Shown: piece after piece, positions 659-12,968 of the stretch | How positions within the stretch are numbered: the first letter of the stretch is position 1 | Layout: each line of letters starts with the position of its first letter | NCBI GenBank assembly: GCA_031260095.1 | Contig: JAIRKN010000047.1 | Coordinates: 1-13,321 of the forward strand | Length of the DNA: 13,321 nucleotides | DNA from: Tannerella sp. | GTDB lineage: Bacteria > Bacteroidota > Bacteroidia > Bacteroidales > Tannerellaceae | Reading direction: 5' to 3' | Program-made: the position numbers and the translations under genes | Notes under the pieces: generated by a model | Seen by the model: only the letters and a program-made list of their open reading frames with translations | The model's database searches: none | What the model was told of the DNA's origin: nothing

Positions 659-1243
659 ATGAAATGCGGTGTCTGCGGTATTAATACTGAAAATAGCAAT
701 ACCTGTGAATTCTGCGGTAATTCAGTCTTAAAAGTCCCTTTGATTTCTGATGTCGATATAGAGCAATACAAACAGAAACTCAATCACTTCCGGCAAAAAC
801 TGTTTGATCCTGGCCAATTTGAGATAGAGGGGGATGTTATAGTAAAGTATAAGGGCAATTCAGAGATTGCTATTGTGCCGAGGAATATCCGTGTGATTGC
901 CAGCCATTGTTTCGCGCGCAGCCAGATAAAAAAAGTATTGATACCTTCTTCTGTTGAATTTATCGGTAATAACCCGGATGAAAGCGAGGACGAAGATAAT
1001 AATGGAGCGTTTTGGGCGTGCCGCGAGTTGGAACAGGTATTTATTGAAAGAAAATCGCGCCTTAGCACAATCGGCAATTATGCTTTTTTTCAATGTATAA
1101 AGTTATGTTCAATAAAAGGAATTCCAGATAAAATAAAAAAAATAAAATCTCATGCTTTTTCTGACTGTAATCTGGATGCTGAAACGATTAAGAACATTAA
1201 ATCAGTAACTTTGGAGATTGCGGACAACTGGAATGATAAATGA
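659..1243 (+). CDS. Zinc-ribbon plus BspA-type leucine-rich-repeat protein (operon gene 1)
   Basis: This 194-residue cytoplasmic protein has no signal peptide or membrane segment. Residues 1-22 form a compact zinc ribbon with two CxxC knuckles (C3/C6 and C16/C19). A helical linker with charged residues (about 30-50) follows, then roughly three or four irregular repeats of the BspA/LRR_5 type (about 55-175), recognisable by 'I..HCF..S.I..V.IPSSV.FIG' and 'IGNYAFFQC..L..I.GIP'. LRR_5 domains are protein-binding surfaces, and the ribbon may bind a partner or nucleic acid. An acidic insertion (ESEDEDNN) interrupts one repeat. It is the first gene of the operon, separated from gene 2 by 12 bp that contain gene 2's ribosome binding site. 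A recognition or adaptor role is inference; no enzymatic motif is visible. Confidence 0.85.
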   Translation: MKCGVCGINTENSNTCEFCGNSVLKVPLISDVDIEQYKQKLNHFRQKLFDPGQFEIEGDVIVKYKGNSEIAIVPRNIRVIASHCFARSQIKKVLIPSSVEFIGNNPDESEDEDNNGAFWACRELEQVFIERKSRLSTIGNYAFFQCIKLCSIKGIPDKIKKIKSHAFSDCNLDAETIKNIKSVTLEIADNWNDK

Positions 1244-1255
1244 AAGAGGTGCCTA

Positions 1256-3181
1256 ATGCTTAATTCTAATGAAATCAATGAAATTCTCAATTATCAAAAG
1301 AAAGAAACGATCAGACTGCATTTTACCCGTAATGATATAACAAATCTGGGACCGGGCATCCGTTATGGTGTCTGGGTACAGGGCTGTAATAAACATTGCG
1401 AAGGCTGCCTGACGCCGAATGCCCAGCCGAGAGACGGAGGCGAACTTGTTGCATGTGATGCTATCATACATGAAATTATTAGTTCGAAGAATATACAAGG
1501 TATAACAATCAGCGGTGGTGAACCGGTTTTACAGTGGAAAGAATTGTACTGTATTATAAGACAAGTAAAACAGAGGAATCATAAAATTAACGTATTACTA
1601 TATACAGGTTACTCATGGGAGGATGATATACAACCAATACTGAAGCATTGTTCCAGCCTTTATAATTTAAAAGAGTTCCAGGATTTTTGGGATTGTCTTG
1701 ATTATTGGATTGACGGTGACTACCAGGCTGACAAAGATGACGAAAAAGGACTGCGAGGTTCTTCAAATCAGCAGTTATACGTGAATCTCCCGGAAGATGA
1801 GACAGGGACAAGAGGTTTATACCGCCAACAAAAAGGAGGTACATGGATAAATTTAATAGATAATAGGGTAAGAAGTTATCCATCCAAAGATAAGGATCCC
1901 ATGTGTGATTTTAACACATCACAGAGAAACGGAATTATCCGCTGTGACCATGACGCTAGGTATCTTATCGGAATTCCTAATAAAGAAGTACTCAAAACTT
2001 TTAACGATATGAACGATATGAATAAAAAAGAAAAAAACAAACCTGGCTCATCGGTAAATACGAACATTACCCAATCAACTTCGGAACCGCAACCAGTAGC
2101 TGAAGCCGAAAAAAATAAGGCTGAATCTGAGTTGCTACAAAATGAGCATAATAAGTCCATTAAATTAATTAATCCAGACCAAAACTCAAAAAAACAACTT
2201 CAGAATATAAACGGAGCGCTTGTTACCGCCCAGCATACCAAGTCTGAATCAACTTCGGAACCGCAGCCGGTAGCTAAAGCCGAAGAAAATAAGGCTGAAG
2301 GTGAGTCGCTGCAAAATAAGGATATTGAATTAGATAAGCAAAACAAAGAATTAAGATTTCAGAATTTAAAAAAAATGTATAAGAACGCCGCTGAAAAACT
2401 AGAAAAGCTGAATGCTGATTTTAAATCGCTGCAAAAAGAATATAATGAATTAGGTACTGAATGCGAAAACTTACAAAAACAACTTGATGATACAAAAAGA
2501 GAGCTTACTACCGTCAAAAATAACCAAACTGAGTTATTTTCGAATAATTTCAGTCTGCAAACGAAAAATAAGGAACTTTCAGCAAATAACCAGCGCTTAT
2601 GTATACAAAATAATGATTTACAGAGTCAGCTTGCTTGCGCCTGGAACACCAATGAAGCGTCACTTTCAAAGAACGCGGGTTTACAGGAACAGATAAACAA
2701 GCTCGATGTAGAATTGCGCCAATACAAGACAGCCCATGATAGTTCACGGAGAGAACAGGAAGAATTAGTAAACTACCGAAAGAAAAATATCGATAATTTA
2801 AAATTTATTATTAATTTTTGCATTAGCCTTAAAAAAATTGCTGAAAAACAATCAACTGAAATTGAAGAACAGTTGCTTTTGTCGAAGAAACAGAAAGAAA
2901 AAGAAAATGAATTAAAGAAGCTTTCCGTTCTATGGGAATCAATCATAATCAAAATTGATGATTTTATAAAAGAATGGGGCTTTACGCCGGTCCGCCCGCA
3001 AAGGGGCGATACATATAACCCCAATGAACATTATATAGATAATCCATCATCTACTACAACAAATGTTATAGAAGAAGTTGTATCCGATGGGTATAAAAAA
3101 GACGGTATTGTTATTAAACCGGCAGTCGTTCGGCTCTTGGAAAGGGACAGAAATCCGGCAGCAAAAAGGACTCAACAATGA
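1256..3181 (+). CDS. Radical-SAM activase fused to a GrpE-like exchange factor (operon gene 2)
   Basis: A 641-residue fusion. The N-terminal part (about 18-190) is a radical-SAM domain of the NrdG/glycyl-radical-activase type: the [4Fe-4S] cysteines are C44-x3-C48-x2-C51, the SAM-binding GGEP is at 87-90, and the NrdG-like 'LLYTGYSW' and 'RGSSNQ' stretches are present. Residues about 255-355 are a low-complexity charged linker with a duplicated 24-residue unit (274-297 and 332-355). Residues about 360-555 form a long coiled coil. The C-terminus (about 573-630) matches the GrpE beta-wing: GFTPVRPQRGDTYNPNEH, then 'SDGYKKDGIVIKPAVV', as in 'G..P..G..FDPN.H' and 'GY..GR.(I/L)RPA.V'. GrpE releases ADP from Hsp70, and the next gene encodes an Hsp70. 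The stop overlaps that gene's start (ATGA), so translation is coupled. No glycyl-radical enzyme is present in the window, so the substrate of the radical domain is unknown. The ribosome binding site AGAGGTG supports this start. Confidence 0.88.
   Translation: MLNSNEINEILNYQKKETIRLHFTRNDITNLGPGIRYGVWVQGCNKHCEGCLTPNAQPRDGGELVACDAIIHEIISSKNIQGITISGGEPVLQWKELYCIIRQVKQRNHKINVLLYTGYSWEDDIQPILKHCSSLYNLKEFQDFWDCLDYWIDGDYQADKDDEKGLRGSSNQQLYVNLPEDETGTRGLYRQQKGGTWINLIDNRVRSYPSKDKDPMCDFNTSQRNGIIRCDHDARYLIGIPNKEVLKTFNDMNDMNKKEKNKPGSSVNTNITQSTSEPQPVAEAEKNKAESELLQNEHNKSIKLINPDQNSKKQLQNINGALVTAQHTKSESTSEPQPVAKAEENKAEGESLQNKDIELDKQNKELRFQNLKKMYKNAAEKLEKLNADFKSLQKEYNELGTECENLQKQLDDTKRELTTVKNNQTELFSNNFSLQTKNKELSANNQRLCIQNNDLQSQLACAWNTNEASLSKNAGLQEQINKLDVELRQYKTAHDSSRREQEELVNYRKKNIDNLKFIINFCISLKKIAEKQSTEIEEQLLLSKKQKEKENELKKLSVLWESIIIKIDDFIKEWGFTPVRPQRGDTYNPNEHYIDNPSSTTTNVIEEVVSDGYKKDGIVIKPAVVRLLERDRNPAAKRTQQ
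2075..2320 (+). repeat. Duplicated 72-bp unit in the radical-SAM/GrpE linker
   Basis: Positions 2075-2146 and 2249-2320 are direct repeats of 72 bp, differing at about ten bases, separated by 102 bp. Both are in frame and encode 24 residues starting STSEPQPVA and ending in LQN plus E/K. The repeat lengthens the flexible linker between the radical-SAM and GrpE-like parts. Unequal recombination could change the copy number without breaking the frame. Confidence 0.85.
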
Positions 3182-4692
3182 ACCTAGGGATTGACTTTGG
3201 TACATGTTTTTCTTTTCCGGCGGCGGTACGCGGCAATGCGCCTGAATCGCTTTTATCAAATGATGATGACTACCGTGACGGGATTCCTTCGATTTTTTAT
3301 TATGAGTCGGAAATCGGGGAGAGGACAGGTGTTGAGGCTAGGAAACGGTGTCAGGCGCATCCGTCTTACGGTGTTAAATATATCAAGAAAGAGATGCGCT
3401 GTGGAAAGCCCATTTCTCAAATTACTTACACCCTTGACGGGCGTAAGTTTTCAGCAAAAGAAATTATCGTAAAGATCATCCGGCATATTATTGATCTTGC
3501 GCAGCAGAAGGCTCCCGATATACCAGTTTCCTCTGAACTTGAAAACATAGTAATAGCCGTCCCGGCGATGTCGGGTTCCAAAATATACCGGGAGACAATT
3601 CTGGAAGCCGCCTGCGAAGCGTCCGGTCTGTCCCGTAAATCAGTTAAGCTCATTGATGAACCGGTTGCCGCTGCGTTAAGTTATTTTTCAACCCGTCAAA
3701 ATATTAACAATGGAACAACGATACTGACTTACGATTTGGGAGGCGGCACCTTCGACACCGCTATTGTCCGCTATGATGCGGCGCTGTCGCAGAAATTTAA
3801 AACCCGTATTCAAAGCGGGGATACAAAAGTCGGCGGGACAAACTGGGATGAGGAACTACGGAAGCATTTTATTCGGGAAAATGATATACGGCTTCAAGGC
3901 AGTATAGATGTGGAACAATTTGATCGAGAAATTATCCAAATTAAACACATGCTTTCTACAGAGGATAAAGTCAGACGGGGCTTTTTTCCAAACAGCGGTG
4001 AGGATGTATATAGACTTGAAATTTCCAGGCAGCAGTTTGAGGAGATGACCCGCTATTTGCTTGATATGACAATCGAAGTGGTTAAAGATGTGATCGCCCG
4101 TTATAAAGAAACCGGGGGAAATGAATCGGACATCAACACGATAGTGTTGGTCGGTGGAGCCAGTAAAATGCCGCAGGTAATAAACAGGCTAAGACAGGAG
4201 TTTCCAACCAAGGAGATAGTGCTGGACAAACCTGAACGGGCGATTGCTTTTGGAGCCGCGATTTATGCGGCTTCCGATTGCCTGATTACTACAGCGCCTC
4301 ATACGTACGGGGTTGATTGCTGCAACCGTGATGACGATATAGAGCAAATTAGCAATATATTATTTCGTGATTCTGAAATGGAGGTTCATGACAGCGGAAA
4401 ATATATTAGTGCACAGAAATATTATGCGCCACGTTATAAGAATCAAACGAAAATTGGTTTTAGTGTTTATGAGACGGATGAGCCCAAGGGCGTTGATTGG
4501 ACGCCTTTTAACGGACGCAAACCGATGTTCGGTGTTACCGTTCCCGTAACGCCCATAGACGGCATTGAGACAAAAATGCGTTCCTTTAGCGCTGAATTCA
4601 GGCTCTTGCAGGACGGAATTTTGGAACTGCATATTTACGACAATGACCGGAACCGTATCGAAGTCGGGTTCGATACAACAAATATTTTTTAG
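3178..4692 (+). CDS. Hsp70-like ATPase with intact motifs (operon gene 3)
   Basis: A 504-residue DnaK-family protein. The nucleotide-binding domain is complete: phosphate-1 GIDFGTCFS (4-12, with C10 where DnaK has Thr), the catalytic lysine equivalent K67 in 'YGVKYIKK', connect-1 DEPVAAALSY (160-169), phosphate-2 DLGGGTFDTA (186-195), adenosine motif VLVGGASKMP (323-332) and connect-2 ERAIAFGAA (353-361). It should bind and hydrolyse ATP. The remaining 120 or so residues are enough for a beta-type substrate domain, but there is no helical lid and no EEVD-like tail; DnaK is usually 600-640 residues. The GrpE-like domain encoded immediately upstream is its probable exchange factor. The start is supported by AAAGGA seven bases upstream and by the overlap with the preceding stop. 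It is unlikely to be the housekeeping DnaK, because of its length and its neighbours. Confidence 0.93.
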   Translation: MNLGIDFGTCFSFPAAVRGNAPESLLSNDDDYRDGIPSIFYYESEIGERTGVEARKRCQAHPSYGVKYIKKEMRCGKPISQITYTLDGRKFSAKEIIVKIIRHIIDLAQQKAPDIPVSSELENIVIAVPAMSGSKIYRETILEAACEASGLSRKSVKLIDEPVAAALSYFSTRQNINNGTTILTYDLGGGTFDTAIVRYDAALSQKFKTRIQSGDTKVGGTNWDEELRKHFIRENDIRLQGSIDVEQFDREIIQIKHMLSTEDKVRRGFFPNSGEDVYRLEISRQQFEEMTRYLLDMTIEVVKDVIARYKETGGNESDINTIVLVGGASKMPQVINRLRQEFPTKEIVLDKPERAIAFGAAIYAASDCLITTAPHTYGVDCCNRDDDIEQISNILFRDSEMEVHDSGKYISAQKYYAPRYKNQTKIGFSVYETDEPKGVDWTPFNGRKPMFGVTVPVTPIDGIETKMRSFSAEFRLLQDGILELHIYDNDRNRIEVGFDTTNIF

Positions 4693-4704
4693 GAGGCAAC
4701 AGCA

Positions 4705-6039
4705 ATGAGTGGCAGGAAAGAATATCCCATATCAATAACCAATGTCCAGTGGGAAAACATGAATCGGGCTGTTCAGACAGCGAGAACCGAGGCACGTGAT
4801 GCTGCCGAGAATCGTCGCAGAGCCGAAGCGGAGGCTCGGCGGCGAATACAGGATATGCAGAACCTCTGCAATGAACAGATTAACGGACTTAACCGTGAAT
4901 TGCAGAATCAAGCTAATCGGCAGGCCGATGCTTTACGGCAGGCCCAAAACGATTTTGCCAGCCGTTTAGAACGGCAGCAGACAGCCCATGAACAAGCCGT
5001 GCGCGAACAGAAGGCAGAGCTTGAACAGCAACTCAGAGTAACGCGCACTGAAATACAGGCAGAGATAAATAATATTAACCGCAAAATGGAAGGGGAGCGT
5101 AAAAACCAGACTGAAATAGCGAACTTTTGGATAACCCAGGCACATATCCTTTTGAATGATATTGATTCAAAATATCGCCATCGTTTGTTTGCAGCCGGCG
5201 AATTTGACGGATTGAACAGCCGTTTAAGGCAAGCTGAAAATGACGTGATTAATCCGGCTAATTTAAGCCAGGCTGCTATTGCCGCTGCGCGTGAAGTATG
5301 CAATAGTGCTATGGAATTACGCGAGCGGGTAATAATTGCCGAAGCCGAATGGACGAATATCTTTGATATTGCCAACAGATCACTTGTTGAATCAAAAAAC
5401 AGGATCGAGAGCCTTGAGCTTCTGGAGTACACGATCCAAGAGGACGGTAAAGATATTAAGGTTGCCGCTGAGATTAATTATTGGTCAAACGGGGCTTTAT
5501 ACGAAGTAAAAAATGAAATAGAAAACTTGCGGGGAATTATCGATAAACCGGACATTTTATCGATTGAACAATTACAAGATATGATTGCCCAAATAAAACA
5601 TCTGGACAATAAAATTACTGATACGGAAAATACTGCGCGAAATAATTTCCTCGCTTCCCAGTTACGGCGTGAAATAGGCGCCGAAATGGAAGAAAAATTA
5701 CCGGGTTGGATCTTAAACGAGGTGCTTTTTGAGAGTGATGATGAACGAAAAGATTTACATTTGATATTCACCCATATAAACGGTTCGGATCAGCTTTCGC
5801 TAATTATACAGGGCGGACAACAGGGCAGAGATTCAGCACGAGTTGTATCAGACTTTTTCTGCAATTCCCACAGAAGCGGGGATACACGAGACGGATGGAT
5901 TAAGGAAATAACAAATGTTATACAAGGGTTTGAATCAAACGCCCGCCCTGTATGTGCGCCGGAATATGCCGACAGCCTGGATGGTAACCGCGCTACGCTT
6001 GATGTGGACTCAATCAAGCGAGGTTCTCTTGCAGGCTAA
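4705..6039 (+). CDS. Long coiled-coil protein of unknown function (operon gene 4)
   Basis: A 444-residue soluble protein with a strong ribosome binding site (AGGAGG, overlapping the stop codon of gene 3). Residues about 20-140 are a continuous A/E/R/Q-rich coiled coil with heptad character. Residues about 145-330 remain mostly helical. Residues about 340-425 look like a small mixed alpha/beta domain with alternating hydrophobics ('LHLIFTHINGSDQLSLII'). There are no Cys/His metal sites, P-loop, HPD J-domain motif or membrane segment. It sits between the Hsp70 and the AAA+/protease genes, so a scaffold, adaptor or substrate-delivery role in the same complex is plausible but unproven. I do not recognise a named family. 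Confidence 0.85.
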   Translation: MSGRKEYPISITNVQWENMNRAVQTARTEARDAAENRRRAEAEARRRIQDMQNLCNEQINGLNRELQNQANRQADALRQAQNDFASRLERQQTAHEQAVREQKAELEQQLRVTRTEIQAEINNINRKMEGERKNQTEIANFWITQAHILLNDIDSKYRHRLFAAGEFDGLNSRLRQAENDVINPANLSQAAIAAAREVCNSAMELRERVIIAEAEWTNIFDIANRSLVESKNRIESLELLEYTIQEDGKDIKVAAEINYWSNGALYEVKNEIENLRGIIDKPDILSIEQLQDMIAQIKHLDNKITDTENTARNNFLASQLRREIGAEMEEKLPGWILNEVLFESDDERKDLHLIFTHINGSDQLSLIIQGGQQGRDSARVVSDFFCNSHRSGDTRDGWIKEITNVIQGFESNARPVCAPEYADSLDGNRATLDVDSIKRGSLAG

Positions 6040-6060
6040 AGACTAATTTAAGGATTTGTT

Positions 6061-9000
6061 ATGAGCAGGCTTAGGCGATTAAACGATCACGGTTTCATCT
6101 ATATTTTTGGAAAAGAAAGTTTGTTTTGCGATGACAAACTCTGTGAAATGAGTCTGGAACAGCATCTGGCGTATATTCTTACCGTTGAAGAAAAATATGA
6201 TCTTGTATTGTTTTATGACAGACTTGGGGGAATCCGCTTTCCATCAAAAGGAATGACCGGTATTTACGCTCAGATAACGGGACTTAAAGCGCCCATTGAA
6301 GAGCGGGGAACAAATATTCCAAAACTAAAAAGACGTGGTATATTGTCGCCGGTAAGTTCCGGAGAATCTGCGAAGAGGGAAACACAAAACAACAATGCGT
6401 TGCTGGTATGGGACAGGGATGTTTTGCCGGTATTTGAAGCGCTGCTTAAACATCCAAGAAAAACCGAAGAACTGGAAAATCTTAGGGTGGCGATAGTTGT
6501 AATAGGAATGGAAAACTGGCTTGATAAAGGGGTGGAAAATCTAAATTCGTTTTTCAGTAAATATGGCTTACGCCAAGGCAAAGATTTAATCATTCTATGC
6601 TTCAACGGCTTTACCCCAAGCGAAGCAAAGAACCAGTATGAAGGATCAAGGGTATTCGGCTATTTAACCGAATGGGTGAAGAGTTTAAATGAAAATTCAA
6701 GTATAAATCCTGGTATATATAAAAACATAATACAGATAGAAGGTCCGTCCCAGGCGGAGATACGAAATTTGCTTAACAGGAAACGCTTGACCGGAGAACT
6801 TATGATTCCGGCCTCCCAGTTAGATATGATTACGGAAGAAGTGTATAAATTTTCTAAATCTAAAAAATTATCCCTCGGTAGCATTTCGGTACAGATAAAC
6901 ACATATTGTACAAATAAAGGGTTACCTGTAACCTTTGATAAAGAAACGTTTATGAATGCCTTTAATACAAAAGTAGAAAAAACAGGTAGACAAATTCTCA
7001 GTGAATTGAAAGGACTGGAATCTATTCATTCAGAACTAAAAATGATTGAAACCATCGTTAAAAATGATAATATTAACAAAGCAGTTCATCCGTACCGGTC
7101 ACGGTTCGCGGATTTATCGGATATTAATAACAAAAATAGAATGGGACACCATTTCGCACTGAAAGGAAATCCTGGCACCGGAAAAACGACAATCGCCAAC
7201 CTTTTAGGAGGTTATCTTTACGAAATCGGTGCCTTGTCAAGCGGTCATGTTATACCTTGCGTCCCCAAAGACCTAATCGCTGGCTTTGTCGGACAGACCG
7301 CATTAAAGACTACCGAAAGAGTGCAGGAAGCTATTGGAGGTGTATTGTTTATTGATGAGATAAGCGGAATTGTCGGCGACAGCAAGAATGATTTAGATGC
7401 AAGAACTCACGGTTTTTCAAAAGAAGTAAACGGGGTTCTGCTTAGCGCAATGACCAGTTATCCCGATCTGTCCGTAATAATCGCGGGGTACCCCCATGAT
7501 GTTGATGCGTTTATTTCAAGCGATGACGGTTTCGGCAGCCGTTTTCTCCATATTATCGAACTACCCGATTATAATGCGGAACAGCTTGCCGGGATTTTCC
7601 GTGACATGGCAAGTAAGGAAGGATATAAGATCGCAGACGAACTAGAATTTATATTAAATGATTTTATAGAAAACTGGCTACAACTAAAACCTTTTGACGG
7701 GAAATGGGGAAACGTCCGTGAAATAGAGAATATTGTTAGACGTATAAAAGGAACTGTTGACCGGGACAGAATTATTAAAATAAAGGATATACCGGAAAAT
7801 ATCGATTCCGGTAAATCTCATTACAATCTGAAAGATTGTATAAAAAACTGCGGTAAAAATAAACCATCTCCACTTGAGGAATTAGAATGTATGATAGGGT
7901 TACAGGAAGTAAAAACAATGGTTAAAAAGGAAATGAATTTTATTGACTATGCCGTTCAAAAAGGCAGCGATATTTCAAATTCAATGAATTTTCTTTTTCT
8001 TGGAAACCCCGGTACGGGCAAAACAACTGTTGCCCGTTTAATGGGCAAAATTCTCACCGGAATAAAAGCACTTCCGTATTCAAATCTAGTAGAAATCCGT
8101 AGCCCAAAAGTACTTATTGACAGAATTTCAGGCGAAAACCGTGCAGGAAAAATATTTAACAGTGCCTTGGGCAGAGTACTGTTTATTGATGAAGCTTACG
8201 GCTTGCTCTTAGAAACCGGCGGAGCAAGCGTTATCACTGAATTGACCGCGTTTTCGGAAAATAACGCGGGAAAACTTTGTATAATACTTGCCGGATATCC
8301 CGATGAAATGGAACAACTGATCAAAACAAATTCCGGACTCGCAAGCAGATTCACGCAACGTATTAATTTTGCAAATTATTCCGCCGAAGAATTAATAGAA
8401 ATATTTGCATCGTTCTGTAAAACAAACAATTGTTCTTATGATGAAGAGTTTTATCATTTACTGCAACATTATACAAAAATACTTTCGGAAAAATCGACCG
8501 GGAAAAAAGATTTTGGTAATGGTCGTGAAATGAGGAATTTATTTATATGCTGCCTGAAAGAACTTGCGAATCGAGTTGGCGGCAAATATACGGTAGATGA
8601 TCTGTTTACCGCATCCGATATTATTTCATGCGTACCCGATTTGGATGCTTACGTCAATGCGAGTAAACCGAAATATGAACTTCCGCCCGTTGAGCACTTG
8701 ATCAAAACAAGTACTGATTGGAGCAAAGACAATTACAATGAACAGGCGTTGAGAGAAGCTCTTATTAGAATAAGTTCAAGCACCGGAATGGGAAGCGGCT
8801 TTTTAGTAACCAACGATGGATATGCCGTTACCTGTAACCATGTTATAAACGGTGCCTGTAATGATATTAAAGCAAGGGTCAGGATAAAAGACAGCAGAGG
8901 CAGCAATCACGACTTTGAATATAGCTGTTCAGTAGTTTCTACAGACGAACGTTTTGATATTGCTGTAATAAAACTTAAAACCAAAGAGAACAATCTGCCG

Positions 9001-9360
9001 TATACGGCTCTGTTGCCCTATGAAAAAGAAATAAAAGAATGGCAAGGTAAAGATATACATCTTTTAAGTTATCCTTTTGGCGGCAGATTTGATGAACCAT
9101 CCCTTTTTAAAGGAAGTATAGCGTCATATCAGGAAATGAAAGGTGTTGAAACACTGTTGCTCGGTATTGAGGGAAAAAGCGGTAGTTCAGGCGGTATGTG
9201 CATTGATCCGCAAAGCGGCTATGTGATAGGCATTTTCCGCGGTTCTTATATCAACAACTCTGATTATAATTTAACGGAAGAAATCAATTATGCCTGTCCC
9301 GTTAAATATTTATGGGATATTTTTAATAAGGAACAAGATTATGAAAAGAATCGGAATTGA
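6061..9360 (+). CDS. Triple AAA-like protein with a C-terminal trypsin-type protease (operon gene 5)
   Basis: A 1099-residue protein with four parts. Residues 1-330 look like a degenerate AAA-type domain: Walker-B-like strand 'LRVAIVVIGMENW', sensor-like strand 'DLIILCFNG', but no GKT. Residues about 340-590 are a CbbX/SpoVK-type AAA+ module: Walker A GNPGTGKT (369-376), Walker B LFIDE with D432/E433, 'VIIAGYP', and arginine R494 in 'GSRF'. Residues about 610-860 are a second module: GNPGTGKT (648-655), D710/E711, 'IILAGYPDEMEQL', and R763 in 'ASRF'. Residues about 895-1090 are a trypsin/HtrA-like serine protease with a full apparent triad: H927 in 'TCNHVI', D966 in 'FDIAVIKL', and S1043 in GSSGG. 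There is no PDZ domain, signal peptide or membrane segment, so the protease is cytoplasmic and physically tied to the motor. AAGGA lies upstream of the start. The last 20 bp overlap the next gene. Confidence 0.93.
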   Translation: MSRLRRLNDHGFIYIFGKESLFCDDKLCEMSLEQHLAYILTVEEKYDLVLFYDRLGGIRFPSKGMTGIYAQITGLKAPIEERGTNIPKLKRRGILSPVSSGESAKRETQNNNALLVWDRDVLPVFEALLKHPRKTEELENLRVAIVVIGMENWLDKGVENLNSFFSKYGLRQGKDLIILCFNGFTPSEAKNQYEGSRVFGYLTEWVKSLNENSSINPGIYKNIIQIEGPSQAEIRNLLNRKRLTGELMIPASQLDMITEEVYKFSKSKKLSLGSISVQINTYCTNKGLPVTFDKETFMNAFNTKVEKTGRQILSELKGLESIHSELKMIETIVKNDNINKAVHPYRSRFADLSDINNKNRMGHHFALKGNPGTGKTTIANLLGGYLYEIGALSSGHVIPCVPKDLIAGFVGQTALKTTERVQEAIGGVLFIDEISGIVGDSKNDLDARTHGFSKEVNGVLLSAMTSYPDLSVIIAGYPHDVDAFISSDDGFGSRFLHIIELPDYNAEQLAGIFRDMASKEGYKIADELEFILNDFIENWLQLKPFDGKWGNVREIENIVRRIKGTVDRDRIIKIKDIPENIDSGKSHYNLKDCIKNCGKNKPSPLEELECMIGLQEVKTMVKKEMNFIDYAVQKGSDISNSMNFLFLGNPGTGKTTVARLMGKILTGIKALPYSNLVEIRSPKVLIDRISGENRAGKIFNSALGRVLFIDEAYGLLLETGGASVITELTAFSENNAGKLCIILAGYPDEMEQLIKTNSGLASRFTQRINFANYSAEELIEIFASFCKTNNCSYDEEFYHLLQHYTKILSEKSTGKKDFGNGREMRNLFICCLKELANRVGGKYTVDDLFTASDIISCVPDLDAYVNASKPKYELPPVEHLIKTSTDWSKDNYNEQALREALIRISSSTGMGSGFLVTNDGYAVTCNHVINGACNDIKARVRIKDSRGSNHDFEYSCSVVSTDERFDIAVIKLKTKENNLPYTALLPYEKEIKEWQGKDIHLLSYPFGGRFDEPSLFKGSIASYQEMKGVETLLLGIEGKSGSSGGMCIDPQSGYVIGIFRGSYINNSDYNLTEEINYACPVKYLWDIFNKEQDYEKNRN
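9328..9333 (+). promoter_or_regulatory. Ribosome binding site fixing the start of gene 6
   Basis: AAGGAA lies seven bases before the ATG at 9341 and inside the end of gene 5. An upstream in-frame ATG at 9290 has no such site and would add 17 residues before the conserved phosphate-1 loop that normally opens Hsp70 proteins, so 9341 is preferred. Confidence 0.7.
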
Positions 9361-10921
9361 TTTTGGAACAACGAACAGCACGGTTGCGTATTTTGACGAA
9401 ACCAGGCAGCAAATTATTGGTCATATATTTAACGGTGTAGGCAGGGAATATTATCCAAGCGCCATAGCCTATCCAAAAAACAAAGGAAGAATTTTGATTG
9501 GATACGAAGCGCAAGGTTCAAATCGTGACAACTATTATTACTATGAATTCTACAAACTGAATCTTTACACTTATTACAAACAAATACTTAACGCCGAACA
9601 CGGCAAACCGGTAATAGATGTGGTAAAAGATTATTTGCATTTACTGATTGAAAAATACAAGCATGAAAATTTTACAAGAGGGGATGAGCGAAAAGCCAGG
9701 CTGGAGTACATTGCTCTTGCCATACCTAACGCAGCTAACGAAGATCAGATTAGCTATGCGAAGGAAATTAAATCGGATCTGAGAGCATTTCTTAACAATG
9801 AGGCGGAGGCCAGTGTATTCTGTGCAGAAGCAGTATGCGCCTGTGAGTTTTATATCAGTAAACCTGAAAATCAAAATTTTCAAGGCAATATCGTAGTTGT
9901 TGATTACGGCGGTGGAACCCTGAATATTTCAAATTGTTATGTTGCCGGAGACCAGACGGGAAAGAAAAATATCAATGTTGTGGCACAGGGCGGAACAGGT
10001 ACAGATGAAAGAAATATTTTTGGATTTGCCGGAGTCGCCTTTGATCGGGGGGTGGTAAGATTAATTCCTGAAATAGCGTCTATGAACCTGCCGGAAAACG
10101 AATTAAATGAATACGCAGTCAGCTTTGAGCAGGAATTTAAAATAAAAAAACATGATGCGATACGGGAGGCCCTTGAAAACTATTACAGAGAAGGTAAAGA
10201 TGTAACACTGACCTGGAAAGTGAGCAACAAAGAGCGGTATGTTTTTAATGTGTCTCTGCTTTATAGTGTCTTTGAAAATGAAAACATGCCTTTGCTTAAA
10301 AAGCATTTTGATTCGGTTGTTCCGCAAGGCGACCGTACAAACGGAGGTGCCGCCTCGCAGGATTCGTTCAGGGTTTTGCCGATAGGAGGTTTTAGCCAAC
10401 TGCTTTGTGTAGAAAAAGCAATTGAAAAATTTCTTTCCATTGATTTGGCCGATTTACATGATAATCGTATTGCGAAAATCAATACGCATGAAAAATTTAT
10501 ATCGGTTGCTTACGGAGCCGCTGTCTACGCCAATAAACGGAATGTTGAATCCGAACCGGTCATTTCTCTATTTGAAATAGGTGTGAAATATTTTGATGGA
10601 CAAAAAATGAATAATGATGTTCTGGTAAAAAAAGACATGGATATAAAATCGATACATAATGTTCAATGGGGAAATAACTATCAAATAATCGATGCCGAAC
10701 ACGCAAATATAAATATATACTGTCGAGCATCTACAAGCGGCGAAACGGAAAAACCTTTTGATATTTCTGATGTATGTACAGATAATTGTATAGTAAGACT
10801 TTGTGTTACTATTCAGGGAAATAAATACAAGTTGCATGTTCAAAACATAAACAACAATAATGAAAGAGAATGGGATTTATCGGCGATGATAGCCGATTAT
10901 AAAAATCGCAGTAGGGGCTAG
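9341..10921 (+). CDS. Divergent second Hsp70-like ATPase (operon gene 6)
   Basis: A 526-residue actin/Hsp70-fold protein. It opens with a canonical phosphate-1 loop, GIDFGTTNS (5-13), but the other motifs have drifted. Connect-1 is CAEAVCACEFY (161-171; E163 is kept but the usual Pro is Ala). Phosphate-2 is DYGGGTLNIS (188-197; N195 replaces the usual Asp). The adenosine loop is VLPIGGFSQ (345-353). Connect-2 is 'SVAYGAAVYA' (388-397). It probably still binds nucleotide, but the hydrolysis rate and the interdomain allostery may differ from gene 3. The C-terminal 125 or so residues contain beta-rich segments and end without a helical lid. It overlaps gene 5 by 20 bp, which suggests translational coupling, and ends 2 bp before gene 7. 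It could be a regulatory or sensor Hsp70 rather than a general chaperone; that is inference. Confidence 0.9.
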   Translation: MKRIGIDFGTTNSTVAYFDETRQQIIGHIFNGVGREYYPSAIAYPKNKGRILIGYEAQGSNRDNYYYYEFYKLNLYTYYKQILNAEHGKPVIDVVKDYLHLLIEKYKHENFTRGDERKARLEYIALAIPNAANEDQISYAKEIKSDLRAFLNNEAEASVFCAEAVCACEFYISKPENQNFQGNIVVVDYGGGTLNISNCYVAGDQTGKKNINVVAQGGTGTDERNIFGFAGVAFDRGVVRLIPEIASMNLPENELNEYAVSFEQEFKIKKHDAIREALENYYREGKDVTLTWKVSNKERYVFNVSLLYSVFENENMPLLKKHFDSVVPQGDRTNGGAASQDSFRVLPIGGFSQLLCVEKAIEKFLSIDLADLHDNRIAKINTHEKFISVAYGAAVYANKRNVESEPVISLFEIGVKYFDGQKMNNDVLVKKDMDIKSIHNVQWGNNYQIIDAEHANINIYCRASTSGETEKPFDISDVCTDNCIVRLCVTIQGNKYKLHVQNINNNNEREWDLSAMIADYKNRSRG

Positions 10922-10923
10922 AA

Positions 10924-11805
10924 ATGTTAAATAGAAATATTATTGAAGGAATTAAAAACGCACTGGACAAGGCTACTACAAGCAAATATTCTGAATTAGA
11001 AGAGCGTTTGAATATCTGCAAAATGACATTGGGTACATACAACCCTGTTGATGCCGATTTCATTCAATTCAAAAACGCATCAATAGAAGATTTTGAAATT
11101 TTTTATAAAAAGTATCTTTACAGAAAAGACGCGATTGTTCCGGAAGGCAGTGGAATAATATTTTCATTAAACAGAATATTGCAAAAAATTGATGAATTTC
11201 GTTCACAATTAAATATAGACCAAAATGAATTGGATACTATTAACAACATGATTAACGATAGTAAAAAAAAGATTGAATCTTTTATTGATTTAAAACTTGC
11301 AATTAAGAAAAGCAGCGATGAACTGTTGCTCTTAAATGAGGAAAAATATAATTTAGATGTGAAGGCTCAGGAATATGAAAAACTGCAAAACCAGATTAAT
11401 GAATTAAAATCACTTGTTGACTTAAAACGGGAAAGCTTATCTAGGGGAAAACTTGATGAAGTTAAAAAACAGATTTATGAATTGAAGATCAATTTCAATA
11501 GCGGCATGGATATTAATAGGGCAGAAGAAATAATCAGACAATGCTGCGGGATTGGCTTATTAGATAAAGTTAATATTGATCTGTTTTGTGAATATATTGA
11601 AGATAAACAGATATGCGAAAAATTAGAGGAAGCATGTTTAATCGAAGGGAAAAAATTAAAAGAAATTGAGAACTATGAAGTCCAATTGAATGTAGTTTTT
11701 AAAAATTATTTGGAATGTCTCAGTTCAATTATTAAAGCCCTTCCACCCAGAAAAGATACCGTTGGAACATCACTTAGGGAGCGAATAGAGTTGTTCAGAA
11801 ACTGA
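10924..11805 (+). CDS. Coiled-coil protein of unknown function (operon gene 7)
   Basis: A 293-residue, lysine- and glutamate-rich protein, helical almost throughout. Coiled coil is strongest at about 85-190 ('IDEFRSQLNIDQNELDTI', 'EYEKLQNQINELKSLV'), followed by a Cys-containing helical segment ('EIIRQCCGIGLLDKV') and more helix to the end. No enzymatic, metal-binding or membrane motif is visible. It starts 2 bp after the stop of gene 6, behind AGGGG, and is the last gene of the operon. Its final codons and stop lie inside a 13-bp-stem hairpin that resembles the end of the neighbouring insertion sequence, so the natural C-terminus may have been replaced. It may pair with the Hsp70 just upstream, as the GrpE-like domain pairs with gene 3, but no GrpE beta-wing is seen. 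Confidence 0.85.
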   Translation: MLNRNIIEGIKNALDKATTSKYSELEERLNICKMTLGTYNPVDADFIQFKNASIEDFEIFYKKYLYRKDAIVPEGSGIIFSLNRILQKIDEFRSQLNIDQNELDTINNMINDSKKKIESFIDLKLAIKKSSDELLLLNEEKYNLDVKAQEYEKLQNQINELKSLVDLKRESLSRGKLDEVKKQIYELKINFNSGMDINRAEEIIRQCCGIGLLDKVNIDLFCEYIEDKQICEKLEEACLIEGKKLKEIENYEVQLNVVFKNYLECLSSIIKALPPRKDTVGTSLRERIELFRN

Positions 11806-11903
11806 AATTTCTGAACAACTTCTGCTAAAAACAGCAATTTCGTAGCACAAAGTGCGAGAAATTGCAAGACTTGTTCGATAACCAAGTAGGTTATTGAACA
11901 AGT
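11789..11903. repeat. Cluster of three hairpins, possibly an IS-derived miniature element
   Basis: Three inverted repeats follow each other. The first is 11789-11801 with 11808-11820 (13 perfect pairs, 6-base loop, containing the stop codon of gene 7). The second is 11834-11865 (GCAATTTC with GAAATTGC, then GCAC with GTGC around AAA). The third is 11869-11883 with 11889-11903 (14 of 15 pairs, 5-base loop). The outer arms (AGTTGTTCAGAAACT at the left, and ACTTGTTCAATAACC reading inward from the right) resemble each other and the IS ends nearby (TAGACTTGTTTA...). No T-run follows any hairpin, so a classical terminator is not obvious, although the stems could slow transcription at the end of the operon. 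Confidence 0.6.
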
Positions 11904-12076: not shown

Positions 12077-12099
12077 TAATAGACTTGTTTAAGAACCAT

Positions 12100-12495
12100 C
12101 TAAAGTAGCCTGTCATAATTTATAATACCACAAATCAAAGTCATTCTCAGTGAATGCCGATTACCGCAATGTCCCCGGTATGGATATGCCATGCATTTAC
12201 ATGTTTTTATTTTGGCATTTATATGTTCAACAACAACACGCCTCTTCGCAAGCTCTCTATTATACGCCTTTTCTCCTTCTGTCTGTTGATGATTTTTGCT
12301 TGCCTTTATCGGTATGAAACTGTTTGAATGATATGCTTCTATACCTTGGTATCCAAGATCAGCGTCAAGCGCTATCGAATCGCTGACGCCTTTTCCTATG
12401 GTGTCTTTATATATCTTGAAATCATGCTCACTGCCTTTGGCTTCCTGTAGGTCGATGATTTTCAGGCTGTTCCGTTCAATGATGACCTGGGTCAT
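12100..12495 (-). CDS. IS5-family transposase, C-terminal part (second frame)
   Basis: A 131-residue frame holding the second and third catalytic residues of the DDE transposase: Asp in 'ALDADLGYQGIE' and Glu in 'RVVVEHINAKIKT', which is followed by the family's 'R.....RMTLICGIINYD' C-terminus. The first Asp lies in the other frame (12476-12925). The ATG at 12493-12495 is only the first Met in this frame and has no ribosome binding site, so this part would be made only by a frame change. It overlaps the N-terminal frame by 20 bp. The residues needed for catalysis all survive, but split between two frames. Confidence 0.85.
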   Translation of the reverse strand: MTQVIIERNSLKIIDLQEAKGSEHDFKIYKDTIGKGVSDSIALDADLGYQGIEAYHSNSFIPIKASKNHQQTEGEKAYNRELAKRRVVVEHINAKIKTCKCMAYPYRGHCGNRHSLRMTLICGIINYDRLL

Positions 12496-12925
12496 GCCGT
12501 TTTTTTTCTGAATAATACGCTCTTTGGCCCTTTTGAGGGCGGTTTATCGGACTTTCGGTAACATCTACCACGATGTACTGGATTGAGGCTGATGTTCTCT
12601 TGAGAACTTTTTTTCCGGGCAGGGAGAATGTGCCGTCTTTGGCCAGCGTGTCTTCCACCCATTGGATAGACAGGCAGACCGTACCCTTGCAGACACCATA
12701 TTCGGCCGCGATACTATCCATGGTCCGGTACTCCCGCAGGTATTTCAGGGTAATATACAGCTTATCTTTGACCGGCAGTTTTGAGGGTTTACCGCCTTTT
12801 TTATGCAAAGCATCGTATTCTCTTTGGAGAATCGAGAGCATGTTCTCAAATGTACGGGGTTTCACCCCGTACAGCCGCTTAAAAAGAACCGCTTTGGCAT
12901 CAGCCAGCTCTTTTTTCTTTTCCAT
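12476..12925 (-). CDS. IS5-family transposase, N-terminal part (first frame)
   Basis: A 149-residue frame with the helix-turn-helix region typical of IS5 transposases ('LKYLREYRTMDSIAAEYGV', 'GTVCLSIQWVEDTL') and the first catalytic Asp in 'IVVDVTESPI'. It then runs through 'RPQKGQRAYYSEKKRHD' and stops. Family members continue 'KKRHT.KTQVI' without a break, and the continuation here lies in the other frame. Reading into that frame needs +1 (or -2); a -1 shift at the run of eight A meets TGA at once. Compared with my recollection of the family consensus, about 8 bases between the codons for RH and TQVI appear to be missing, which favours an inactivating deletion over programmed frameshifting. 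The start has a -10 only six bases upstream. Confidence 0.85.
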   Translation of the reverse strand: MEKKKELADAKAVLFKRLYGVKPRTFENMLSILQREYDALHKKGGKPSKLPVKDKLYITLKYLREYRTMDSIAAEYGVCKGTVCLSIQWVEDTLAKDGTFSLPGKKVLKRTSASIQYIVVDVTESPINRPQKGQRAYYSEKKRHDPGHH

Positions 12926-12931
12926 GCCGTC

Positions 12932-12960
12932 ATTATAGCATCCTTGTGGTTTCTAAACAA
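12932..12960 (-). promoter_or_regulatory. Transposase promoter inside the IS end
   Basis: On the minus strand TTGTTT (complement of 12955-12960, within the inverted repeat), a 17-bp spacer and a perfect TATAAT (complement of 12932-12937) form a good sigma-70-type promoter. Only GACGGC separates the -10 from the ATG, so transcription would start at or next to the start codon and the message would be nearly leaderless, which would keep transposase levels low. Confidence 0.6.
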
Positions 12961-12968
12961 GTCTATTA

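Follow-up and report, generated by a model that had tools for sequence, protein, structure and literature searches.

The closest described counterparts of the gene cluster reported here are NTP-dependent conflict systems of bacteria. As set out in the main text of Kaur et al. 2020 (PMC7159879), such systems combine a chaperone or GTPase switch with peptidases and with variable parts such as GUN4, FGS or repeat domains, GUN4 and FGS being effector domains, and they are enriched in multicellular bacteria. The cluster in question consists of seven genes on the forward strand (659..11805) of a 13,321-nt stretch, hereafter the window, which represents positions 1 to 13,321 of contig JAIRKN010000047.1 in an assembly filed under Tannerella sp. 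(GCA_031260095.1). A first reading made from the letters and open reading frames (ORFs) alone, here called the sequence-only reading, had seen in it a functional set that joins two Hsp70-like ATPases, a GrpE domain, tandem AAA+ modules with a serine protease, a radical S-adenosylmethionine (SAM) enzyme, a protein with a zinc ribbon and leucine-rich repeats (LRR) and two coiled-coil proteins; Pfam and motif searches agree with this inventory. In the present study, homology searches showed that four of these families, namely a predicted lid-less Hsp70, the radical SAM enzyme, a coiled-coil family that we call CC4 and the tandem AAA+ protein, form a linked core across phyla. The window proteins were scanned with Pfam, NCBIfam and PADLOC 2.0.0, and statements on listed matches refer, for gene 5, to the best 25 of 32 matches in Pfam and the best 25 of 85 in NCBIfam. 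None of the listed matches of the seven proteins reached an NCBIfam cut-off.

Four gene families linked across phyla

In the window, the core is represented by gene 6 (9341..10921), a divergent Hsp70-like ATPase; gene 2 (1256..3181), with an NrdG-like radical SAM domain (Fer4_12), a coiled coil and a C-terminal GrpE domain according to Pfam; gene 4 (4705..6039), with a long coiled coil and a compact helical/beta part; and gene 5 (6061..9360), in which an N-terminal region is followed by two AAA+ modules of the CbbX/SpoVK/EccA type and a C-terminal trypsin-like protease. When gene 6 was compared with 72,556 plasmids by tblastn, one record was found, the 56-kb plasmid pCAL6303.02 of Calothrix PCC 6303, where six genes on one strand encode an Hsp70, a tetratricopeptide repeat (TPR) protein, a Fer4_12 radical SAM protein, a coiled-coil protein of 494 residues, a tandem AAA+ protein and a zinc-ribbon coiled-coil protein. 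All four core proteins pair with Calothrix proteins (gene 6, 7e-15; gene 2, 2e-27; gene 4, 4e-19; gene 5, 2e-72).

Gene 4 has no accepted family in Pfam or NCBIfam, and Foldseek searches of PDB and BFVD with its AlphaFold2 model (predicted local distance difference test, pLDDT, 80.0; predicted template modelling score 0.56) returned nothing at E <= 0.001. A search with gene 4 aligned with the Calothrix protein collected 56 CC4 proteins, of which the minority with names come from Cyanobacteria, spirochaetes, one member of Thermodesulfobacteriota and one metagenome-assembled genome of Firmicutes. The CC4 alignment, after removal of the window-like rows and rich in cyanobacteria, was then searched against a species-genome collection and yielded 30 loci. 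By name, 22 of these belong to filamentous cyanobacterial genera, families or orders, the habit of these groups being general knowledge, four to Chloroflexales, two to Desulfobacteraceae, and one each to an unspecified cyanobacterium and a deltaproteobacterium.

Family models were built on some of the 30 loci and never on the window. They detected the tandem AAA+ protein at 23 loci, Hsp70 and radical SAM at 13 each, a coiled-coil protein E of about 300-360 residues that follows Hsp70 at 14, and a zinc-ribbon-tagged protein, described below, at 16, where many of the contigs end early and the loci are partly redundant. Counted over those 13 loci that are 20 kb or longer, the numbers were 12 (tandem AAA+), 7 (Hsp70), 9 (radical SAM), 8 (protein E) and 9 (tagged protein). 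As controls, 17 stretches of 20 kb at arbitrarily chosen coordinates in six of the system-bearing genomes were searched with identical models and thresholds; they gave one Hsp70 and no AAA+, radical SAM, CC4, protein E or tag. Single window proteins used as queries (phmmer, E <= 1e-3) gave matches at 23 of the 30 loci with gene 5 and at 12 each with genes 2 and 6. When 12 genomes were searched as a whole, the best radical SAM match and the best AAA+ match were no more than 13 kb apart in 11 of them; several of these genomes contain further, weaker radical SAM matches. Among 386 genomes drawn separately from the phylum of Arthrospira, with Arthrospira included, CC4 was found in ten, and the AAA+ gene lies within about 1.5 kb in eight; the system is thus patchy but coherent.

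All four core families are present in the window cluster, as judged by models from the other loci only: gene 6 at 8e-42, gene 2 at 9.1e-42, gene 4 at 7.5e-40 and gene 5 at 2.9e-108. Because four gene families recur together in other phyla, the grouping is more than chance. The functional set proposed by the sequence-only reading is supported by these four families, but there is no support for all seven genes as one set; the GrpE domain on the radical SAM protein, the second Hsp70 and the LRR payload are specialities of the window.

Radical SAM/AAA gene pairs on plasmids of Moellerella, Photobacterium, Polaromonas and Rhizobium were considered as further members and rejected, since with the AAA model they reach just 1e-5 to 1e-10. 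They match the radical SAM model, except that the radical SAM protein of L014 was not recovered, and no CC4 was found in the plasmid stretches examined. The plasmids of Polaromonas, Photobacterium and Moellerella (L015, L017 and L018) carry a repeated five-gene cluster of a large AAA-domain protein, a PIN protein, a hypothetical protein, an AAA ATPase and a Fer4_12 radical SAM protein; this appears to be a separate system whose radical SAM enzyme is related. On a Geminocystis plasmid (L011, 19264-23380), a weakly CC4-like protein and an AAA ATPase are located downstream of a radical SAM gene, in a stretch that includes an annotated anti-phage dCTP deaminase; this arrangement is a possible divergent version of the system.

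The window's branch and the tagged proteins

Gene 2 carries the motifs CNKHCEGC (CxxxCxxC) and SGGEPV (GGEP) by pattern search, a Fer4_12/radical SAM domain (Pfam, 3.4e-29) and GrpE at residues 466-626 (1.5e-8). It shares the radical SAM domain and motif with NrdG, the activase of anaerobic ribonucleotide reductase; however, it scores 90.7 bits against a cut-off of 126.1 and is fused to GrpE, and neither NrdD nor another glycyl-radical enzyme is among the listed Pfam families of the window. A protein search found three relatives besides gene 2 itself, two of them close (54% and 51%; one is named Treponema sp.). The GrpE fusion, for which a search of genomes had been suggested, was present only in the window and one close relative (P0002, precomputed Pfam), and GrpE was absent from the three related radical SAM proteins scanned by Pfam (L009, L046 and L048). 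From this distribution, the predicted fusion is specific to the window's branch. To our knowledge, and short of an exhaustive search, a radical SAM enzyme fused to an Hsp70 exchange factor has no earlier case. The third relative, P0004 (483 residues), combines radical SAM and one AAA domain that has AAA_lid_6; this fusion hints that radical SAM and AAA+ act together.

In gene 5, Pfam detects two AAA domains and Trypsin_2 (4.2e-18), and pattern search finds two Walker A/B pairs and the protease H, D and GSSGG motifs. Its best solved-structure matches are CbbX and EccA. The AAA+ modules align best to CbbX, SpoVK and EccA, but the protein stays under the equivalog cut-offs (275/423 bits for SpoVK, 246/467 for EccA and 222/459 for CbbX) and differs in its tandem AAA+ modules fused to a protease. 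Close relatives over the entire protein are P0006 (86%), whose contig is as long (14,364 bases) as that of P0002, and P0007, the latter with a third AAA module. As a search for the architecture elsewhere had been suggested, it is relevant that AAA+-AAA+-trypsin recurs in Chloroploca (L046; 1072 residues, Trypsin_2 1.6e-26), and in the alignment the triad residues are kept in L046 and L044. Most other AAA+ ORFs probably lack the protease because they are only about 840-930 residues long. In the window's branch, the predicted protease is the sole recognisable executioner.

The ATPase motifs DFGT and DxGGGT were found in the two Hsp70-like proteins by pattern search. Gene 6 matches Pfam HSP70 at 2.3e-7 and was modelled by AlphaFold2 with seven relatives at a low pLDDT of 66.2; DnaK and a lid-truncated BiP are among its best PDB matches (E about 1e-19). 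In this low-confidence model, gene 6 would consist of a nucleotide-binding domain and a beta domain, with no lid. Gene 3 (3178..4692) matches HSP70 at 1.4e-41 across the nucleotide-binding domain and is nearer to canonical HscA/DnaK; it stays under every listed DnaK/HscA NCBIfam cut-off, matches the system Hsp70 model from other loci at just 3.2e-16, and is an extra copy. L025 likewise holds two Hsp70-like ORFs. Neither window Hsp70 qualifies as a housekeeping DnaK (prok_dnaK, 130.1 and 31.5 bits vs a cut-off of 822.55), and no J domain is among the listed Pfam families, so that the window differs from a housekeeping DnaK/DnaJ/GrpE operon in having neither an equivalog-level DnaK nor a listed DnaJ.

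Gene 1 (659..1243) encodes an N-terminal zinc ribbon (CGVC...CEFC) followed by BspA-type repeats (Pfam LRR_5, 1.2e-16). Two CxxC pairs near the N-terminus are found in 31 of 453 ORFs, 30 of them in the loci and the remaining one being gene 1. A tag model trained on 15 of these proteins, CPVC...CxxCGWDLxPYP plus a short helix, matches 28 of the 30 locus proteins. The payloads behind the tag, of repeat or lectin-like kinds, vary and are interchangeable: among 26 tagged proteins scanned by Pfam, a part of those existing, seven are WD40-like (one weak), five FGE-sulfatase and five GUN4 (three from Arthrospira), while TPR, pentapeptide, beta-helix and LRR occur once each and five have no recognised domain or a coiled coil only. 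At least one tagged protein was found in all 13 genomes searched, with a model that contained tags from most of them and from gene 1. Tagged genes and the core are in some cases on different contigs (for example in G504, G501, G498, G497 and G500). In Arthrospira PCC 9108, ten tagged genes stand in a row within 14.3 kb (L030; G493:C1:5815429-5829691), and the three examined are GUN4 proteins.

With gene 1 left out of the model, gene 1 matches the tag at 14.8 bits (E = 9.8e-4 among 885 ORFs) and, in a second search, at 5.5e-4. Its cysteines and the stretch after them align with the tag, and gene 1 also fits in position and layout. Since this match is weak, the membership of gene 1 is likely and not proven; gene 1 is likely to be a tagged recognition protein of the system. 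The earlier suggestion that the LRR protein is the recogniser finds support in the tagged proteins of other loci, a class whose recognition domains vary.

Gene 7 (10924..11805), a coiled-coil protein directly 3' of the Hsp70 gene, has no accepted Pfam family. Its position and size fit protein E, of which it is the positional counterpart; an assignment by sequence was rejected, as the E-value to the protein E model was 0.014 in a search of only seven proteins and not significant.

The seven reading frames are present, with the start of gene 6 at the ATG at 9341, and the gaps between genes 1 to 7 are 12, -4, 12, 21, -20 and 2 bases, so the packing described earlier (gaps of 21 bp or less, overlaps at 3178-3181 and 9341-9360) is correct. 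A perfect 13-bp hairpin across the stop codon of gene 7 (11789..11820, forward strand), detected by inverted-repeat search and unflagged by a terminator scan, is a possible transcript end. Downstream, at 12077-12968, there is an IS5-family element that has a transposase split over two ORFs and 22-nt terminal inverted repeats (91%); no second copy was found in the bin of the contig (G000). Upstream, positions 1-650 contain no ORF of at least 80 residues, and their tetranucleotide pattern resembles neither the operon (r 0.22) nor G000 (r 0.26), which is weak evidence in so short a stretch.

The bin itself belongs to Bacteroidota, with 13 SusD matches. The tetranucleotide correlation of the window with G000 is 0.66, compared with 0.74-0.93 for ten other contigs against the rest (two G000 stretches that read only N were dropped), and that of a Treponema plasmid stretch with the window is 0.77. 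Gene 4 had no match at E <= 1e-8 in 394 other genomes of the bin's phylum, and those close relatives of the window proteins that have names are spirochaetes. A spirochaete origin is therefore probable; the contig was probably either placed in the wrong bin or acquired recently.

Possible working and alternative explanations

One explanation, to which we give about an even chance, is that the system is a conserved, modular, ATP-driven switch that triggers proteolysis, most likely of an immunity or suicide type within the NTP-dependent conflict class. Rings of the CbbX type remodel their partners by threading a tail through the pore, extended peptides are the substrates on which Hsp70 cycles with GrpE, and radical SAM enzymes of the NrdG and pyruvate formate-lyase activase type remove a hydrogen atom from glycine in a peptide. 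In the switch, tagged proteins such as the LRR protein of gene 1 would recognise molecules that are foreign or abnormal and attach to the core via the tag, while Hsp70, its GrpE-type exchange factor and the coiled coils may keep the complex at rest and set a threshold. The radical SAM enzyme, here tethered to GrpE, might then irreversibly modify or license a polypeptide held by Hsp70; radical chemistry on such a substrate is suggested because GrpE is fused to radical SAM. Finally, the AAA+ motor would pull the released partner and open or feed the trypsin-like protease, which would make the final cut. The fully specified form, a new innate immune machine in which swappable zinc-ribbon sensors act through a chaperone gate, a radical SAM-GrpE protein marks a polypeptide and a CbbX-like motor with fused protease fires, is a distinctly doubtful proposal.

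Several observations weigh against the switch. Hsp70 is missing from 17 of the 30 loci, and radical SAM likewise from 17; in G504, radical SAM is on a different contig from AAA+; and adjacency is limited to CC4 and AAA+ at the loci from Laspinema and at some of those from Oscillatoria/Phormidium. The loci include three from Trichodesmium and three from Laspinema. The tag match of gene 1 is weak, and gene 7 is assigned from its position alone. The payloads are recognition domains, and the system has no constant toxin or nuclease. The protease serine of P0007 is lost in the alignment, and the short AAA+ ORFs have no room for a protease, as checked with Pfam for Calothrix only. Spirochaetes, the likely source of the contig, are not known to be multicellular. 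To these may be added the neighbourhood. At 17 of the 30 loci (non-redundant), all 100 eligible neighbour ORFs were compared with 100 ORFs drawn at random from 196 control ORFs (PADLOC, E <= 1e-10); 163 models were matched near the loci vs 116 in the controls, a weak test without clear enrichment, in which models and not proteins are counted and paralogous restriction-modification models, frequent among the 25 listed, hit single proteins. The idea that the locus lies inside a defence island, raised by the sequence-only reading, accordingly found no clear support and was rejected. The window itself gave domain-level PADLOC matches only (RT-Protease_XI trypsin, 3e-14; IetA/mad8 AAA; PDC-M61B Hsp70, 3.5e-6), from a database that supplies no cut-offs, and no known anti-phage system in PADLOC 2.0.0 matched several components strongly and specifically.

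Some single neighbours point to conflict: an nSTAND1-WD40 protein in L030, a type I specificity subunit in L049, and vWA and dynamin genes on the Calothrix plasmid. Others do not, such as a ketoacyl-synthase/FabA protein beside L022, FeoB in L042 and a histidine kinase in L043. A further pointer to conflict comes from L046, where a GAP1-N2 protein (2043-5171, reverse strand) is located within 2 kb of the Chloroploca Hsp70, with one ORF between, so that two conflict-type systems appear to stand side by side there.

An alternative possibility, tentative and on balance rather unlikely, is stress proteostasis, in which Hsp70/GrpE and AAA+ would disaggregate damaged proteins, an HtrA-like protease would degrade these, and the iron-sulfur protein with radical SAM would sense oxygen or repair a radical enzyme. 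Hsp70, GrpE, AAA+ and an HtrA-like protease are a classical quality-control set, and the niche of the host is probably anoxic, judging from what is generally known of Treponema. However, neither DnaJ nor ClpB is among the listed Pfam families of the window, the length of most related AAA+ ORFs leaves no space for the protease, the variable recognition domains of the tagged proteins suit general quality control poorly, and a presence in 10 of 386 genomes is patchy. Less probable still is a machine that assembles or activates one large complex, comparable to CbbX with red-type Rubisco or to AAA+ proteins in contractile injection systems, with the tagged proteins as client adaptors. The structural matches of gene 5 to CbbX and EccA would suit it, as would a PhageMin_Tail protein in L037 and the Treponema succinifaciens plasmid pTRESU01, where a Fer4_12 radical SAM gene and an AAA ATPase gene lie between VgrG-type and baseplate V genes (L013, 11899-14054); however, this plasmid locus matches just the radical SAM model out of six, and no recurrent client gene was found among the Pfam-scanned neighbours, a part of all neighbours. 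Finally, that unrelated genes form a chance or lineage-specific cluster held by recent transfer can scarcely be entertained, for although gene content varies among loci and the contig composition is unlike its bin, the four families are linked in Cyanobacteria, Chloroflexota and partly deltaproteobacteria, the 17 controls lack CC4, AAA+, radical SAM, E and tag, and radical SAM stays close to AAA+ in 11 of 12 genomes.

If the switch exists, it adds an energy-driven device of Hsp70 and CbbX-like tandem AAA+ to the predicted bacterial conflict systems, many of its hosts being filamentous. The new tag domain can help to uncover hidden sensor proteins in genomes, and CC4 is revealed as a conserved coiled-coil family with no Pfam or NCBIfam entry. 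As a copy is carried by the 56-kb Calothrix plasmid, the function is directly testable.

Comparison with described conflict systems

We found no account of this gene set in the literature, with supplements, preprints and most subscription papers outside the scope of the search. The main text of PMC7159879 contains neither of the terms CbbX and SpoVK, and CbbX, radical SAM and zinc ribbon are absent from the accessible part of PMC8195603. The systems nearest to the window are those in the main text of PMC7159879. One theme of its GAP1-N2 GTPase systems, Hsp70 with GrpE and a second Hsp70, is found in the window as genes 3 and 6 and the C-terminus of gene 2; these systems also have variable domains, are reported in chloroflexi among others, and a GAP1-N2 gene lies near the related locus L046. 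However, no GTPase or GAP1 family is listed by Pfam for the seven window proteins. Moreover, the second Hsp70 of the GAP1-N2 systems is described as lacking a peptide-binding domain, whereas gene 6 is modelled with a beta domain, and the window instead has a CbbX-type AAA+ motor, radical SAM and a zinc-ribbon tag.

The FtsH ternary systems of the same source resemble the window in having two AAA+ domains in one protein, a radical SAM gene in a subset and extra helical proteins. Their first FtsH domain is inactive, whereas both AAA+ modules of the window keep the Walker motifs and are of the CbbX/SpoVK type, and radical SAM is described there as an effector. As for the MoxR-vWA ternary systems, no vWA is listed by Pfam and no MoxR was seen in the window. 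The effector-associated domains EAD1 and EAD2, as presented there, are small shared domains on many payloads with several copies per genome, as is the tag; the tag, however, consists of a CxxC-CxxC zinc ribbon and a short helix and reaches ten copies in 14.3 kb in Arthrospira. The analogy to NTPase/peptidase conflict systems that had been drawn earlier is a good one. The parts list parallels the systems treated in that text, but their defining features are absent. The system looks like an unreported relative of the predicted bacterial immune systems.

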